A stretch of DNA of 64,000 bases from Anaerolineae bacterium (GTDB lineage: Bacteria > Chloroflexota > Anaerolineae > DRVO01), in assembly GCA_013178015.1 (NCBI GenBank), contig JABLXR010000001.1:62001-126000 (forward strand). The letters are read 5' to 3'. The notes below the pieces were generated by a model, which was not told where the DNA came from, did no database searches, and was given only the letters and a program-made list of their open reading frames with translations. Position 1 is the first letter of the stretch, and each line of letters starts with the position of its first letter. Made by a program: the position numbers and the translations under genes. Positions 25,604-40,575 of the stretch are shown one piece after another.

Positions 25604-26677
25604 TCAGCCCAACTCGTACCAGCCGTAATCCTCAACCGCTTGCACCAAGGCCAAGATGTTCTCCCACGGTACCTCCGGCTCCACCAGATGGGTGGGCGCA
25701 ACCAGCAGGCCACCGCCAGCCCCGACAGCGAGGATCAGCTCCCGCACGGCCTGGCGCACGTCGGTCGGCGAGCCGAAGGGCAGCGTGGTCTGCGTCCCTA
25801 CCCCGCCCCAGAAGGCCAAATGCCCACCATATTCCCTCTTGATGGCCGCTATGTTCGTGACCTCGGGCTGAAGAGGATTGAGTACGTCGACTCCGATGTC
25901 GATGAGATCGGGGATGATCTCGTCTATCTTGCCGTCACTGTGGAAGGCAACCAACAAGCCCGCTCGCGCCGATCTGGCAGCGTCGATCACCTGCTGGAGG
26001 CGCGGCTTGAACCAGCTTCGCCACAAGGCTGGCCTCATCATGAGAGCTCTCTGCGTGCCAAAGTCGTCCGCCAGCCAAAGCACGTCGATATCGAAGCTAG
26101 CCAGACGAGCAGCGAGACGGGACGACACCTCGGTCACACGGTCCAGGAGTGCTTCGGCCAGTTCTGGCGTCGTCATCATGTCCATCATGAGGGCTTCCAT
26201 GCCCCGGAGTTTGTAAGCAGGCCAGAATACGGTGCCGCCCAATGGTGTGCAGTGAGCAACCACGGCCAGGCCCTGCTCGTGCAGTGAAGTCACCGCGGCG
26301 GCAAACCCAGCAAACCGCTCCTCTGCTGCTAGGTCCGGCAAGGGGTAGCGCGCTATCTCCTGCACGGAGCGCGCCCCCGCCAGGGGGTGAAGGATCCGTT
26401 CGAAGTGATACTCGGAACCCTTTGCCCAGCCGACTCCCCACTCATCCACGCGCGCCCCCTCGGGGTAGCCGCGCCGGTAAGGTGTGAGGTCGCCGGAGGG
26501 CCGCGCCGGCAGGGGGTGTACATCCCGCACCTCGAAGCCGAAGTAGCTCGCGGGATCCTCAGCGCTAGTCTCCTGCCGAAAGCGCTCAAGCTGGCTCGGG
26601 CAGAGAGACATCGTCTTGGGGACGCAGTCCGGGACGCGTCGAGAAAGCGCGGTGAGCACTCTCTCCCGGGGCGTCAA
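25604..26677 (-). CDS. Uroporphyrinogen-decarboxylase-superfamily protein (methyltransferase-like), first
   Basis: 357 residues with the UroD-superfamily barrel: [11 protein letters not shown] at the start, [18 protein letters not shown] and DVLNPLQP in the C-terminal half. Members outside haem synthesis include corrinoid-linked methyltransferases and many uncharacterised proteins in carbohydrate gene clusters. The conserved arginines of true HemE are not evident and no haem genes are near, so HemE is unlikely. It overlaps the stop of the Opp ATPase gene by four bases (ATGA) and is therefore part of that operon. Reaction unknown. Confidence 0.75.
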
Positions 26678-33818: not shown

Positions 33819-34853
33819 TCACTTGACTCTCTCCTCTCGGGCAGGTGGCCCCGATGACTGCCTGATCACTAGCTGCGGCTTGAGCACAAGCTGCCGCGGT
33901 TCCGAGCTCCTTTCGTCCGACTGCTCAAGCCCCTCGATAAGGAGCTCAGCTCCCTTCATGCCTACATCGTACGGAGACTGGGACACGGTCGTCAGGGGTG
34001 GAGAAAGCCAGGCCGCAAACTCGGCATCGTCATAGCCAACGAGCGCCATATCGCCCGGCACAGCCCAATCAAGCTCTCGTAAGGCCTTAAGAATGGGAGT
34101 GCACTGAAGGTCGTTGTAGGCAAATATGGCCGTCGGACGCGGGCTTAGCGCTGGCAAGGCCTGCAGGACACGCTCGTACACGCTAGCAAGCTCTGGGGAG
34201 CAACGTACGACCAGCTCCGGCGCCATCCGAACGCCATATTCCTCGAGAGCGTGACGGTAGCCTGCCAGCCTCGTCCGCACGCTGTAACGGTCGCCCTCCA
34301 GCGTGACGTGCGCGATGCAAGTGTGCCCCAGGCGGCACAAATGCGCCGTTGCTTGGTAGGCGCCATCCTCGTAGTCAGAGATCACGTAGTCGAGGTCTAG
34401 CCCCTCCAAGCGCCTATTGAGGAGCACGCAACACACGCCAGCCTCAATCAGGCGGGAGAGTGCGTGAATGCCGCTCTCCACGGACGCTACCAGAACGCCT
34501 TCTACCCGTCTCTCCAGCATCAGCCGGTGAGCTTGCAGCTCCAGTTCTGGGCACTCGTTGGTGTTGTAGATGATCATGCCGTAACCGCGCGCAGTGGCCG
34601 CATCTGCGACCCCACGCGCGAGCTGAGCGAAGAAGGAATCACCGTTGTTGGGGATGATGAGGCCAAGCATGCGGCTTCTGCCGCCCACCAGTGTGCGTGC
34701 GTAGGCGTCGGCGGTGTAGTTGAGCTCCTGGGCGGCGGCAAGAACACGTTCCCGCGTGGCACGAGCCACATCAGGCTTGTCATTCAGAGCCCGGCTCGCC
34801 GTGCTCACGGACACACCTGCCCGACGAGCTATATCACGGATGGTGACCCTCAC
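33819..34853 (-). CDS. LacI-family transcriptional regulator
   Basis: 344 residues. The helix-turn-helix VTIRDIARRAGVSVSTASRALN and hinge helix fill residues 3-50. A periplasmic-binding-like effector domain begins at LGLIIPNNGDSFF. It should repress the downstream opp/lyase cluster until a sugar ligand binds. The GTG at 34853 follows GAGGAG nine bases upstream; an in-frame start at 34892 would lie inside the operator. Its own promoter and a matching operator are legible just upstream. Confidence 0.92.
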   Translation of the reverse strand: MRVTIRDIARRAGVSVSTASRALNDKPDVARATRERVLAAAQELNYTADAYARTLVGGRSRMLGLIIPNNGDSFFAQLARGVADAATARGYGMIIYNTNECPELELQAHRLMLERRVEGVLVASVESGIHALSRLIEAGVCCVLLNRRLEGLDLDYVISDYEDGAYQATAHLCRLGHTCIAHVTLEGDRYSVRTRLAGYRHALEEYGVRMAPELVVRCSPELASVYERVLQALPALSPRPTAIFAYNDLQCTPILKALRELDWAVPGDMALVGYDDAEFAAWLSPPLTTVSQSPYDVGMKGAELLIEGLEQSDERSSEPRQLVLKPQLVIRQSSGPPAREERVK

Positions 34854-34898
34854 AAGGGCAAACTCCTCGCAGACAAGAGAAACACCACCCAAGCACGA

Positions 34899-35524: not shown

Positions 35525-35670
35525 GCCTGGTCGGTATCCGCGCAGGGCGGTTGCTCCGCCCGCGAGGCCAAGGGAGCAGCAGCGCCGGTGGCGGCCTGCT
35601 GTCATCGGTGCTAGGTCTCTTGCCTTGACACACGAGGGTGGACCGTACGAGGACACAGGAGGCGTGGCAA

Positions 35671-36651
35671 GTGTCGCAGGCAACGGACAGGACGCTGACG
35701 CAGAGAGTCAAGGAGCATGCCAGGCAACACGGGGCCGATCTCGTCGGTGTGGCCAGTATGGACCGCTTCGAGGGAGCCCCGAAGCAGATGGATCCGAGGT
35801 ACATCTTCCCCGACGCGAAGGCCGTGCTCGTCTTCGGCTTCCGCATCCCCAGGGGCACCCTTCGCGGTATCGAAGAGGGCACCTTCTTCTACGTCTACTC
35901 CAGCCTGGGCTACGCCGGCATCAACGTGGTGCAGCAGCCCGTCCTCCTTTGGAGCGTAGCCGCCTTCCTGGAGGACGAAGGCTGGGAAGCCGTGCCCATC
36001 CCCAACCACCTCGACTGGGAAAACACCGGGAAGCACGGCAAGGACCCGGTGGTCCACGCCCGAGTCAACGAGGCCTGGAGCCGGCCCGTCTCTGCGGACA
36101 AGCCTGCGCCTGATGTCTTCATCCATCTGCGCATCGCCGCCTTCTGCGCCGGACTGGGCGAGATAGGATACAGCAAGCTCCTCCTCACCCCGGAGTTCGG
36201 GCCTCGGCAGAGGTTGGCCGCCATGCTCACTGACGCCCCCCTGGAGCCCGATCCTCTCTTCGAGGGCGAGCTGTGCGATCGCTGTATGCTGTGCGTGCGC
36301 GACTGCACCGGCAGAGCCATCAGCCCCTCGGAGACAATCAAAGTGACCGTGGCCGGGCGGCAGCTGGAGTGGGGCAGGCTCGACCACTACCAGTGCAGCC
36401 GCTACTTCTGCGGCGCCAGCAGGGAGCACAACCCGTTCATGGTCAGCGCCGAGGACGAGCGGGGGTTCACCCAGGAGGTCTCCCAGGCTCAGCAGTACAA
36501 GCTCACCCCTGCCTACGGCTACGGGCGGGCACTCGAGGGAGCGCGAGGGTGCATCAGAGCCTGCATGGTGCACCTGGAGGAGACCGGCAAGCTGAACCGT
36601 AGCTTCCACAACCGGTTCCGTAGCCGTGAGCCGTGGAGGCTGGAGCGGTGA
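35671..36651 (+). CDS. QueG/reductive-dehalogenase-like 4Fe-4S protein, copy 1
   Basis: 326 residues from a GTG preceded by AGGAGG eight bases upstream. An N-terminal QueG-like domain (GADLVGVASMDRF, residues about 17-29; then FPDAKAVLVFGF) is followed by a ferredoxin-like part, CDRCMLCVRDCTG, and a later pair CIRAC. This resembles the cobalamin/Fe-S part of epoxyqueuosine reductase and reductive dehalogenases. There is no Tat signal or RdhB anchor, so dehalogenation is not supported. Substrate unknown. It aligns end to end with the gene at 37033. Its stop overlaps the GTG of the truncated fusion ORF that follows. Confidence 0.78.
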   Translation: MSQATDRTLTQRVKEHARQHGADLVGVASMDRFEGAPKQMDPRYIFPDAKAVLVFGFRIPRGTLRGIEEGTFFYVYSSLGYAGINVVQQPVLLWSVAAFLEDEGWEAVPIPNHLDWENTGKHGKDPVVHARVNEAWSRPVSADKPAPDVFIHLRIAAFCAGLGEIGYSKLLLTPEFGPRQRLAAMLTDAPLEPDPLFEGELCDRCMLCVRDCTGRAISPSETIKVTVAGRQLEWGRLDHYQCSRYFCGASREHNPFMVSAEDERGFTQEVSQAQQYKLTPAYGYGRALEGARGCIRACMVHLEETGKLNRSFHNRFRSREPWRLER

Positions 36652-36959
36652 AGCTCTCGGTCGGGTATCGGTTGCCTGCCGACGAGGAAGACGACTGGAT
36701 CGCCTCCATCGTGGCCGGGCACCGCCAGTCGGTGGCTGAGGCCTACTTCGCCTGCGAAGGCATGGCGAGCGGGCGGGCGCCCGTCGGATGGCGCGGCGGT
36801 GAGGTCGACCGGACGGGCCAGGGCGGAGCTCAAGTGGACTGCAATTGCTACCAGCCTCTGATTGAGATGTTGCAGGAGGCGGATCCCGATCTGACTGTGG
36901 AGCCAAGCTGGGGGCCCGGTGGTGCCGTCGAAGGCCAGGCCAAGCTGCCCTGGGTCTGA
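36648..36959 (+). pseudogene. Chimeric remnant: start of a U32-like gene fused to a piece of a solute-binding protein gene
   Basis: 103 codons from a GTG that overlaps the preceding stop (GTGA). Residues 1-47 match the start of the U32-like protein at 37995 in 25 of 47 positions (shared YFA, GMASGRA). After a short bridge, the segment at 36848-36946 matches residues 70-102 of the binding protein at 39223 in 25 of 33 positions (PLIEM, PDLTVEP). The stop comes right after. So most of a U32-like gene and both ends of a binding-protein gene are missing. It is best read as the collapsed first copy of a three-gene tandem duplication. Whether the fused ORF is translated is unknown. Confidence 0.85.
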
Positions 36960-37032: not shown

Positions 37033-37998
37033 ATGGCCGCACTGACCGACAAGGCGTTCACCCAGAGAGTCAAGGAATACGCCAAGCTTCAGGGAGCCGA
37101 CCTGGTCGGCGTCGCCTCCATGGACCGCTTCGAAGGAGCACCGAAGCAGATGGACCCCCGCTACATCTTCCCTGACGCCAAGGCCATGATGGTCTTCGGC
37201 TTTAGGATACCCAGGGGTGCTCTGCGGGGGATAGAGGAAGGCACCTTGTTTCATGCCTACTCGAGCATGGGATACATGGGTATCAACTTCGTGCGACAAC
37301 CAGTGGTGATATGGAGCATAACGAACTATCTGGAGGATGAGGGATACGAAGCCGTACCTCTTCCTAACTTCGCCTTCGAGTGGAGCAGCCTGGTTCTTCA
37401 CACGGGTGAGCAGCGGCCGGCGGTGAGGCATCATGTCTACCCCTACCAGCCGCATACGGGCTCGGGTCGCGCCCCGTGGAGCATCCCTGTGGACGCGAAC
37501 AAGCCGGCGCCGGACGTGTTTGTCCACTATCGGATCGCCGCTGTAGCCGCTGGGCTTGGTGAGATCGGCTATAGTCACCTCTTCCTGAGTCCCGAGTTTG
37601 GTCCCAGGCAGAGACTGGCCTGCTTGCTCACCGATGCGCCTCTCGAACCCGACCCCTTGTACGAAGGGCAGATCTGCGATCGCTGCATGCTCTGCGCTCG
37701 CGACTGCACCGGCAACGCCATAAGCACCACGGAGACCGAGAAGGTGGTCGTTGCCGGCAAGGAGTGCGAGTGGGGCAAGTTCGACATCGAAAGGTGCTGG
37801 AAGGCTTTCCAGGACCCGCCACCCGAGTACAACCCCTTCCTCGGCGATCCATCGCCGACCTACTGGGGAGGAAGGGCACTGGAGGGCGCCAGGGGCTGTA
37901 TCCGCGCCTGCATGGTACACCTCGAGGAGACCGGGAGGCTGACCAAGCCGTTCCGCAAACCGTTCCGAACTAGGAGGCCTTGGAGAATCGACCAATGA
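37033..37998 (+). CDS. QueG/reductive-dehalogenase-like 4Fe-4S protein, copy 2
   Basis: 321 residues. It shares with copy 1 the GADLVGVASMDRFEGAPKQMD block at the N-terminus, the CDRCMLCARDCTG cluster motif and GCIRACMVHLEETG near the end. The middle segment (about residues 115-150) differs and is longer here. AGGAG lies seven bases before the ATG. The stop overlaps the ATG of the U32-like gene (ATGA), as in copy 1, which points to a real physical or metabolic partnership. Reaction unknown. Confidence 0.8.
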   Translation: MAALTDKAFTQRVKEYAKLQGADLVGVASMDRFEGAPKQMDPRYIFPDAKAMMVFGFRIPRGALRGIEEGTLFHAYSSMGYMGINFVRQPVVIWSITNYLEDEGYEAVPLPNFAFEWSSLVLHTGEQRPAVRHHVYPYQPHTGSGRAPWSIPVDANKPAPDVFVHYRIAAVAAGLGEIGYSHLFLSPEFGPRQRLACLLTDAPLEPDPLYEGQICDRCMLCARDCTGNAISTTETEKVVVAGKECEWGKFDIERCWKAFQDPPPEYNPFLGDPSPTYWGGRALEGARGCIRACMVHLEETGRLTKPFRKPFRTRRPWRIDQ

Positions 37999-39104
37999 GG
38001 TTTTCGGTCGGGTACCAACTACCCCTCGCGGACGATCAGCCCACGATAGTGGACTTGGTCCGGCTCTACCGCCAGTCCATAGCCGAAGTCTACTTCGCTT
38101 GGGTGGGCATGGCGAGCGGGCGGGCCAGGGTAGGACACTACGACGGCGACGTTGACTGGGGCAGTCAGCACCAGATCGAGGCCGACTTGACCCGCCTATC
38201 CGATATGGGCGTGGGCCTGAGCCTCCTTCTGAATGCCAACTGCTACGGCGGCCTGGCTGTGTCCACCGCCCTGGCCAATGAGGTGAGCTCATTGGTGCGA
38301 CACCTGCTGTCGTTTGCTCACATTGCCGTCGTCACTACCACGTCGCCCTTCGTCGCCCACGTCATCAAGCAGAGCTGGCCCGAGATTGACGTGAGAGCCT
38401 CCGTCAACATGCGAATCGGCACCGTGGAGGGCATGCAGTACCTCAGCGACCTGTTCGATAGCTTCTGTGTCCTGCGAGACGACAACCGAGACCTCGACAG
38501 GCTGGGTGAACTGAAGGAGTGGGCTGACCAGAACGGCAAGAGGCTGACCATCCTTGCCAACAGCGGCTGCCTGTACGCTTGCTCTGGGCAGACCTACCAC
38601 GACAACCTGGTGGCCCACGAGGCGGAGGTGAGTCGCACCGTCAACGGGAGCGACTGGAACCCAGTGACTTGCTGGCGATACTACGCCGAATCCGGCCATT
38701 GGGTCTCCTGGATGAAGAGCACCTGGATTCGGCCGGAGGACGTGGCTAGCTACGAGCCGTACGTCTCACAGGTGAAGCTGGCGACGCGCATGCACAGCAG
38801 CCCGGGCAAGGTCATTGATGCTTACGCGAGGGGCAAGTTCCACGGCAATCTGATGGACCTGATGGAGCCCTCACATTCCCTGCTGCTTCATCCGTGCATT
38901 GTCGCCAATGATCGCTTCCCAGCCGATTGGTTCGAGCGGACCTCCGCCTGCCACAGGCAATGCCGGACTTGCAGCTACTGCGAGGAAGTCTTGGCCCGAG
39001 TGTTGGTACGTGAAGATGCGCTTCTGCCGAGGAGCGCACGGAGAGGAAACGGCCCGCTGGCGGCAGCCGTGGAGACCCCCGCGGCGGGGCCCGAAGGGGG
39101 GTGA
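37995..39104 (+). CDS. Peptidase-U32-like protein with C-terminal cysteine cluster
   Basis: 369 residues from the overlapping ATG. A U32/UbiU-UbiV-like barrel is suggested by the strand pattern and SVNMRIGTVEGMQYL, then ANSGCLYACSGQ. Cysteines at 192, 196, 226, 301, 319, 323, 326 and 329 could ligate one or two Fe-S clusters, the last four in a CxxxCxxCxxC string. UbiU/UbiV and other U32 members are Fe-S proteins that act in oxygen-independent hydroxylation or RNA modification, not proteolysis. The family assignment is by eye and the function is unknown. It follows the Fe-S reductase in both intact and fossil copies. Confidence 0.68.
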   Translation: MRFSVGYQLPLADDQPTIVDLVRLYRQSIAEVYFAWVGMASGRARVGHYDGDVDWGSQHQIEADLTRLSDMGVGLSLLLNANCYGGLAVSTALANEVSSLVRHLLSFAHIAVVTTTSPFVAHVIKQSWPEIDVRASVNMRIGTVEGMQYLSDLFDSFCVLRDDNRDLDRLGELKEWADQNGKRLTILANSGCLYACSGQTYHDNLVAHEAEVSRTVNGSDWNPVTCWRYYAESGHWVSWMKSTWIRPEDVASYEPYVSQVKLATRMHSSPGKVIDAYARGKFHGNLMDLMEPSHSLLLHPCIVANDRFPADWFERTSACHRQCRTCSYCEEVLARVLVREDALLPRSARRGNGPLAAAVETPAAGPEGG

Positions 39105-39222: not shown

Positions 39223-40575
39223 ATGGTTGCGGAAGCCATCAGCGTCTCGCGTCGGCGCCTGCTCAAGCAGGCCATGGTGGGCGGTATTAGTGTGTTTGTG
39301 GCCGCCTGCGTCCCCGCTACTCCCGCCCCGGCGCCCGCCACCGCCCCACCGGAAGAGGTGGCTCCAACCAGGGCACCGGCCACAGTGAGGTTCCTCACTC
39401 AGGGCGGCGCCCAGGTGGCGTTCGATCGCTACGAACCGCTGATCGAGATGTTCCAGGAGGCAAATCCCGACCTGACTGTGGAACCGATCTGGGAACCCGG
39501 TGGTGCCATCGAAGTCCAGACCAAGCTCCTTACCCTCATCGCCGCCGGCGATGCGCCTGACGTCTACTGGGCGCATACCTATACCAACGCCGGTCAGGCC
39601 AAGCGGGACATCCAGATGGACATCCAGCCCATGGTCGAGGCAGACCCGTCGGTCAACCCCGAGGACTTCCTGGCCGGCGCATGGGCGGACTTCAATGTGG
39701 CCGGCAAGCAGATCGGCATCCCTCGAGAGACCACCAGCACCGTCCTCATCTACAACAAGGCCCTGTTCGAGGAACTCGGCCTGCCTCTGCCCACCGACAA
39801 CTGGACCTGGAGCGACTTCCTGCTGGCCGCCCAGGCCATGACCACGGGGGAAGGTGCGGAGCGAGTCTACGGCACCGCGGACTGGAACCTGAACCGCAAC
39901 ACCTGGATCAAGATGTGGCAGAAGGGTGGCGACGTCGTCAACCAGGACCGCACTCAGTTCACCATGAACCAGGAGCCCAGCGTCTCCCAGGTAGCACTGA
40001 TCCAGGACTGGCACCACGACCCCCAGATCCACATCCCCGGCGTGGAGAAGGGGGGCTTCTCCACCGGCGATCTGTTCACCACCGGCCGCATCGGCATGTT
40101 CCCCCAGTTCTCGGTATTCGATAACGTCATGCCCTCCGAGTTCGAGTGGGACATCGCCCACCTGCCCCGGGACGCTGATGATGTGCAGACCACCAGAGTG
40201 GCCTCTGCTGGCCACAGCATGTACTCTGGAACCAAGCAGCCCCAGGCAGCCTGGCAGTGGATGTCGTTCCTAACCACAGAGGAGGCGTTCTGGCACTGGG
40301 TCGCCACTGGCCTGAAAGTGCCCTCTCGCATCTCGGTGGCCCAGGACCCGAAGTTCCTCGATCCCACCCAGCCGCCTGAGCACGCCCAGATCATGATTGA
40401 CGCCTTCGCCTACGGCCGTCCCGAGCCTGTGGCCGGGGACTGGATCGGCGTACACCGCGAGATCCAGGCGGCATTGGACTCCATCTACGGCATCGAGAAG
40501 CCCGACGTGCAGGCCTCGCTGGACGCCATCGCTGAACGGGTCAACGAACTGATCGCCTTCGTGCCAGGCGAGTAG
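39223..40575 (+). CDS. Extracellular sugar-binding lipoprotein of an ABC importer
   Basis: 450 residues. A Tat-like SRRRLLKQA leader, lipobox Cys29 (FVAAC) and Pro/Ala linker precede a family 1 solute-binding fold (FQEANPDLTVEP; later PQAAWQWMSFL). It serves the permeases at 42800 and 43772, while no ATPase gene is present, so a shared MsmX-type ATPase is presumed. AGGAGG lies six bases before the ATG. Confidence 0.92.
   Translation: MVAEAISVSRRRLLKQAMVGGISVFVAACVPATPAPAPATAPPEEVAPTRAPATVRFLTQGGAQVAFDRYEPLIEMFQEANPDLTVEPIWEPGGAIEVQTKLLTLIAAGDAPDVYWAHTYTNAGQAKRDIQMDIQPMVEADPSVNPEDFLAGAWADFNVAGKQIGIPRETTSTVLIYNKALFEELGLPLPTDNWTWSDFLLAAQAMTTGEGAERVYGTADWNLNRNTWIKMWQKGGDVVNQDRTQFTMNQEPSVSQVALIQDWHHDPQIHIPGVEKGGFSTGDLFTTGRIGMFPQFSVFDNVMPSEFEWDIAHLPRDADDVQTTRVASAGHSMYSGTKQPQAAWQWMSFLTTEEAFWHWVATGLKVPSRISVAQDPKFLDPTQPPEHAQIMIDAFAYGRPEPVAGDWIGVHREIQAALDSIYGIEKPDVQASLDAIAERVNELIAFVPGE

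Follow-up and report, generated by a model that had tools for sequence, protein, structure and literature searches.

Do a reductase-like Fe-S protein and a U32-type protein, encoded by two overlapping genes, act together as a two-component enzyme? The question arises in a stretch of 64,000 nucleotides of Chloroflexota DNA (hereafter, the window), in which the gene of a 321-aa Fe-S protein with the RdhA/QueG fold, which we term red (37033..37998, + strand; assigned from profile scores, the fold of its AF2 model, and its conserved cysteines), is followed by that of a 369-aa U32-type TIM-barrel protein with eight conserved cysteines (37995..39104, +; assigned from its AF2 fold and cysteine conservation). 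As a sequence-only reading of this DNA had proposed, the two reading frames share an ATGA stop/start overlap (37995..37998, +), and a 4-nt overlap of the same two genes also exists at four other loci (L021, L022, L029, and L039). Downstream lies a gene for an extracellular solute-binding protein of the SBP_bac_1 type (39223..40575, +), which is within a duplicated unit (see below), and a LacI-family regulator gene (33819..34892, −), divergent from the pair, is a neighbour only. Besides these solute-binding-protein and LacI genes, the window has genes for ABC permeases, DUF6259, and NamZ. Upstream of the transporter genes, at 25604-26677, there is also a protein of the uroporphyrinogen-decarboxylase type (PF01208), a family to which some corrinoid methyltransferases belong.

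The pair has a partial copy upstream. A second red gene (35638..36651, +), intact, 68% identical to red in DNA and 66% in protein, ends in a GTGA that opens a shortened U32 frame, as the sequence-only reading had reported. This frame is the 5'-end remnant of a second U32 gene, with a GTG start overlapping the stop of the red copy (36648..36778, +; about 130 bp at 70% DNA identity to the intact U32 gene), and joined to it is a 128-bp fragment of a solute-binding-protein gene (36819..36946, +), which DNA comparison found to be 81% identical to 39400-39527 in the downstream gene. Since the fossil consists of a red copy, a U32 5' end, and a solute-binding-protein fragment, the tandem duplication took in the whole red-U32-SBP unit; what stands upstream is a genuine remnant of it, shortened by an internal deletion that cut down the first copy of the unit and left its red gene intact. 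The fragment and its source are more alike (81%) than the two red copies (68%), which suggests later recombination or a different constraint.

A Pfam scan of Red gave no match over threshold, and its NCBIfam scores lie far below the curated cut-offs, with 50 bits against 160.35 for RDH (TIGR02486) and 24.8 bits against 200 for QueG (TIGR00276). A profile of 64 Red relatives, searched against the PDB, found PceA, a subunit of a membrane-bound RDH complex, NpRdhA, and QueG at 1e-10 to 1e-21. The AF2 model (pLDDT 86) resembles PceA (Z 18.0) and QueG (Z 17.4), and the next fold is that of MMACHC (Z 10.0), which is also a B12 protein. Indeed, the model has the cofactor-core fold of the class III cobamide/[4Fe-4S] enzymes (Z 16.5-18 for PceA, QueG, and NpRdhA). 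Because the folds match and both scores are far below their cut-offs, Red belongs to the RdhA/QueG structural class but lies outside both named families. A nitroreductase-type domain that binds cobamide and a C-terminal ferredoxin-like module are probable. The host genome encodes CobS, and a profile search of this genome found no QueG over the cut-off.

The cysteines of Red at positions 215, 218, 221, 225, 255, 289, and 293 are conserved in 63-64 of the 64 family members. The eighth ferredoxin-type position, a cluster-II ligand, is Cys in 39/64 and Glu in 16/64; both window copies have Glu. All the sequences with Glu, these two included, have Ala at position 173, where many members without it have Cys. 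At the position aligned to the corrin-proximal Tyr of RdhA and QueG, where the sequence alignment is weak, the family has Tyr in 41/64 and Phe in 9/64, and the window copies carry Arg and Gln.

The second protein had been read as U32-like, which the fold bears out. A PDB sequence search with its family profile gave one chance match only, so a fold comparison was needed: the AF2 model (pLDDT 89.3) matches the U32 TIM barrel of 5D88 with a Z score of 19.5 over 224 residues, the next fold scoring 12.7. Profile evidence points the same way, with weak scores: the window protein reaches 13.4 bits against the PF01136 gathering score of 22.4, 27 of 52 relatives match this family weakly (best E 2.9e-5), and distant homologues at two loci (L012 and L013) that share its cysteines exceed the cut-off. 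In a local profile comparison, the barrel core also aligns weakly with TrhP and RlhA. No canonical U32 protein was found in a profile search of the window's genome. As to the eight cysteines claimed for this protein, its total is ten, and eight is the number conserved. C83, C192, C196, and C226 are invariant (52/52 members), and C319, C323, C326, and C329, which make up the CX3CX2CX2C string of the sequence-only reading, at residues 319-329, are present in 48-49/52. The barrel spacing, C83..C192-X3-C196-X29-C226, with this additional C-terminal site, departs from the U32-oxidase motif, CX6CX15CX3C (PMC11574389). Since the barrel cysteines are invariant and the C-terminal site is conserved, the protein probably carries two Fe-S clusters of its own.

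Is the pairing peculiar to this genome? When 84,980 species genomes were scanned, 53 further loci turned up, in the Kiritimatiellaeota, Armatimonadota and WS1/Zipacnadia, Lentisphaerota, Planctomycetota, Chloroflexota, Bacillota, and Latescibacterota. With the window included, there are 54 U32 genes, and a red gene lies near (within about 1 kb) 46 of them, upstream within about 1.05 kb in 39 and downstream within 64 nt in 7. The two are within 100 nt of each other in 34 cases; where the gap is longer, it is taken up by an IclR-type regulator at several loci of the Lentisphaerota. At all eight loci where U32 is unpaired, red occurs elsewhere in the genome, and in two of the eight, U32 sits at a contig edge. 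Adjacency is thus not confined to one genome, and the two genes travel together in bacteria of seven or more phyla, most of them uncultured and probably anaerobic. No relative of the query protein P0002 was found in plasmid and viral collections.

Co-occurrence at the genome level was followed in two groups. Of 100 genomes related to that of the window, in its Chloroflexota class, and counting full red genes, 3 have both genes, none has a single one, and 97 have neither (p=6e-6, uncorrected for kinship). Among 59 Lentisphaeria genomes, with two-domain red-like proteins and weak U32 matches left out, 24 have both, 1 has red alone (G139), 1 has U32 alone (G142), and 33 have neither (p=3e-14, again uncorrected for kinship). 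Moreover, the tree distances of the two proteins are correlated (r=0.41, 0/5000 permutations; 0.40 and 9/5000 in a thinned set), a moderate mirror-tree signal that may come partly from species relatedness.

The two genes are not equally numerous. In the six genomes counted, red matches, some of them two-domain or partial, and U32 copies stand at 24/3, 12/2, 10/1, 8/2, 7/1, and 4/1. In gut Lentisphaerota and some Bacillota, as many as three red genes come after a U32 gene; three Lentisphaeria loci show four-gene units of one U32 and three red paralogues (L094:9366-13310, L096:7130-11104, and L097:8991-13190), and at another (L095), two of the reds are apparently fused (615 aa). Some red genes stand in tandem with no U32 gene next to them. 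The window's own genome has a second red tandem pair of this kind next to a sugar-type ABC transporter (L083:6161-8091), and a similar red-only tandem is found in both of its pair-bearing relatives. At another locus (L084:11369-16115), with no U32 in the fetched stretch, two proteins of ~780 aa each match Red twice and adjoin three tandem single-domain red genes and two IclR-like regulators. No fusion of red to U32 was found, the long U32 frames at L041, L053, and L058 having no red domain; the extension at L041 looks like a spurious GC-rich reading frame.

The excess of red hints that it is Red that faces the substrate. The opposite division of labour, that of the sequence-only reading, is to our minds unlikely: Red would only deliver low-potential electrons, and O2-independent oxygen transfer would take place in the U32 barrel. 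No characterised RdhA or QueG protein is known to be a mere electron carrier, and red is the more numerous of the two in the genomes counted. This scheme does draw on the U32 relatives characterised so far, which are O2-independent hydroxylases (PMC11574389, PMC6599085), and on the many invariant polar residues of the barrel (E31, R43, N80, R134, N138, R161, R165, H202, H208, K261, and R265); the chemistry would be a prephenate-dependent hydroxylation, as in UbiU-UbiV, TrhP, and RlhA, or its reverse. In its favour too, distant eight-Cys U32 relatives in one Chloroflexota genome (L012:8146-10437 and L013:7874-10283) directly adjoin a chorismate mutase-DAHP synthase fusion and a DAHP synthase, neighbours that would fit a prephenate co-substrate for this distant sister family. 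However, this shikimate link is limited to one genome and is absent in two others (L109 and L110), and no homologue of DAHP synthase or chorismate mutase-DAHP synthase was found at the 53 pair loci at phmmer E<=1e-8; the surroundings of this family give prephenate as oxygen donor no backing. At L014:6900-9128, the gene of a further distant U32-like protein overlaps one for a radical SAM protein, in a cluster that may serve peptide modification.

The sequence-only reading had placed the pair in a carbohydrate uptake cluster. Sugar-gene neighbours are indeed common, with fucose-isomerase-type, FGGY kinase, class II aldolase, rhamnosidase, xylose-isomerase-like, and fucosidase genes at several single loci, but they are not constant: only IclR-type regulators (9/74) and family-5 solute-binding proteins (SBP_bac_5, 5/74) recur, and among the 74 neighbours, there is no conserved third gene. 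A sugar-related role is plausible. The varied neighbours, together with the patchy spread over phyla and the red-only tandems, could mean that the two genes have separate functions and merely travel together on a mobile catabolic cluster. We think this improbable, since nothing else is conserved with the pair, and since 4-nt overlaps and a near-perfect co-occurrence in genomes, even where the genes are unlinked, speak against it.

The same patchy spread, multiple copies, and sugar or regulator neighbours are unlike housekeeping RNA modification, for which there is precedent at the level of the superfamilies, each of which contains RNA base-modifying enzymes (QueG in one, TrhP and RlhA in the other; PMC4646009, PMC6599085). 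Moreover, the C-terminal helical-repeat domain of QueG (residues 258-372; PMC4646009) is missing from the 321 aa of Red, whose best alignments to QueG stop at about residue 252 of the latter. That the pair modifies RNA is, in our view, very improbable.

Our preferred reading, to which we give a probability of about 0.5, is that the pair is a conserved two-component anaerobic redox enzyme, with Red as a third class III B12 family, alongside those of RdhA and QueG, and with the U32 protein as its dedicated partner. This reading starts from the folds, the conserved cysteine sites, the gene overlap, the co-occurrence, and the shared tree signal; the units of one U32 and three red genes, the sugar genes at several loci, and a host genome that has CobS but neither QueG over the cut-off nor canonical U32 also count in its favour. 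It would extend to cobamide and cluster binding, a physical interaction, and separate roles. Red would be a cobamide/[4Fe-4S] reductive catalyst that faces the substrate, perhaps a sugar-derived small molecule, and cleaves a C-O or similar bond; we favour this role because the known RdhA and QueG proteins are catalysts and because red outnumbers U32 in the six genomes. The U32 protein would be a shared Fe-S partner for electron transfer or oxygen handling. Against this reading stand the corrin-proximal Tyr, which is not conserved at the weakly aligned position, the Glu at one cluster-II ligand, the red-only tandems, the two Lentisphaeria genomes with a single one of the genes, the lack of a fusion, and the moderate mirror-tree signal, and the neighbours are too varied to name a substrate. 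More speculatively, cobamide chemistry and the Fe-S oxygen chemistry of U32 proteins might be coupled in one complex of the pair, an enzyme of a new kind for an O2-independent sugar transformation, for example, a reductive deoxygenation or ether cleavage absent from known pathways.

Both folds are known ones, but the pairing seems to be undescribed, as do the two subfamilies. In open full texts, a scope outside which most subscription papers and preprints fall, no paper was found that pairs QueG or RdhA with U32, and no described pathway with both proteins came up there, in keeping with the sequence-only reading. According to the authors of the QueG structure, there may be further B12- and [4Fe-4S]-dependent families that await characterisation, and knowledge of the redox partners of class III enzymes is scant (PMC4646009). 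Red is a concrete and widespread candidate for such a family, with a genetically defined partner; if the two form a complex, class III B12 enzymes gain a new conserved protein partner. The range of U32 proteins is likewise widened: beside those that hydroxylate RNA and ubiquinone, there is now a variant, probably with two clusters, whose genetic setting is another one. The pair can be tested, since it has a cultured carrier, Oligosphaera ethanolica DSM 24202.

How, then, does the pair compare with known systems? Like the RdhA proteins PceA and NpRdhA, Red combines a nitroreductase-type corrinoid domain with a ferredoxin-like module (Z 16.5-18), and its strongest sequence match to them takes in the last part of the corrinoid domain together with the first Cys motif. 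It differs from them in its score (50 bits against a cut-off of 160), its size of about 320 aa, and, as far as the weak alignment goes, the corrin-proximal Tyr, which is not conserved at the aligned position. With QueG, Red shares the fold of the cofactor domain and the CX2CX2CX3C motif; unlike QueG, it scores 24.8 bits against a cut-off of 200, lacks the C-terminal repeat domain, is multicopy, and lies beside U32 genes. The U32 protein of the pair has the TIM barrel and conserved cysteines of the U32 oxidases UbiU, UbiV, TrhP, and RlhA, but differs from them in the spacing of its barrel cysteines, in its extra C-terminal CX3CX2CX2C site, and in its partner, which is Red rather than a second U32 protein.
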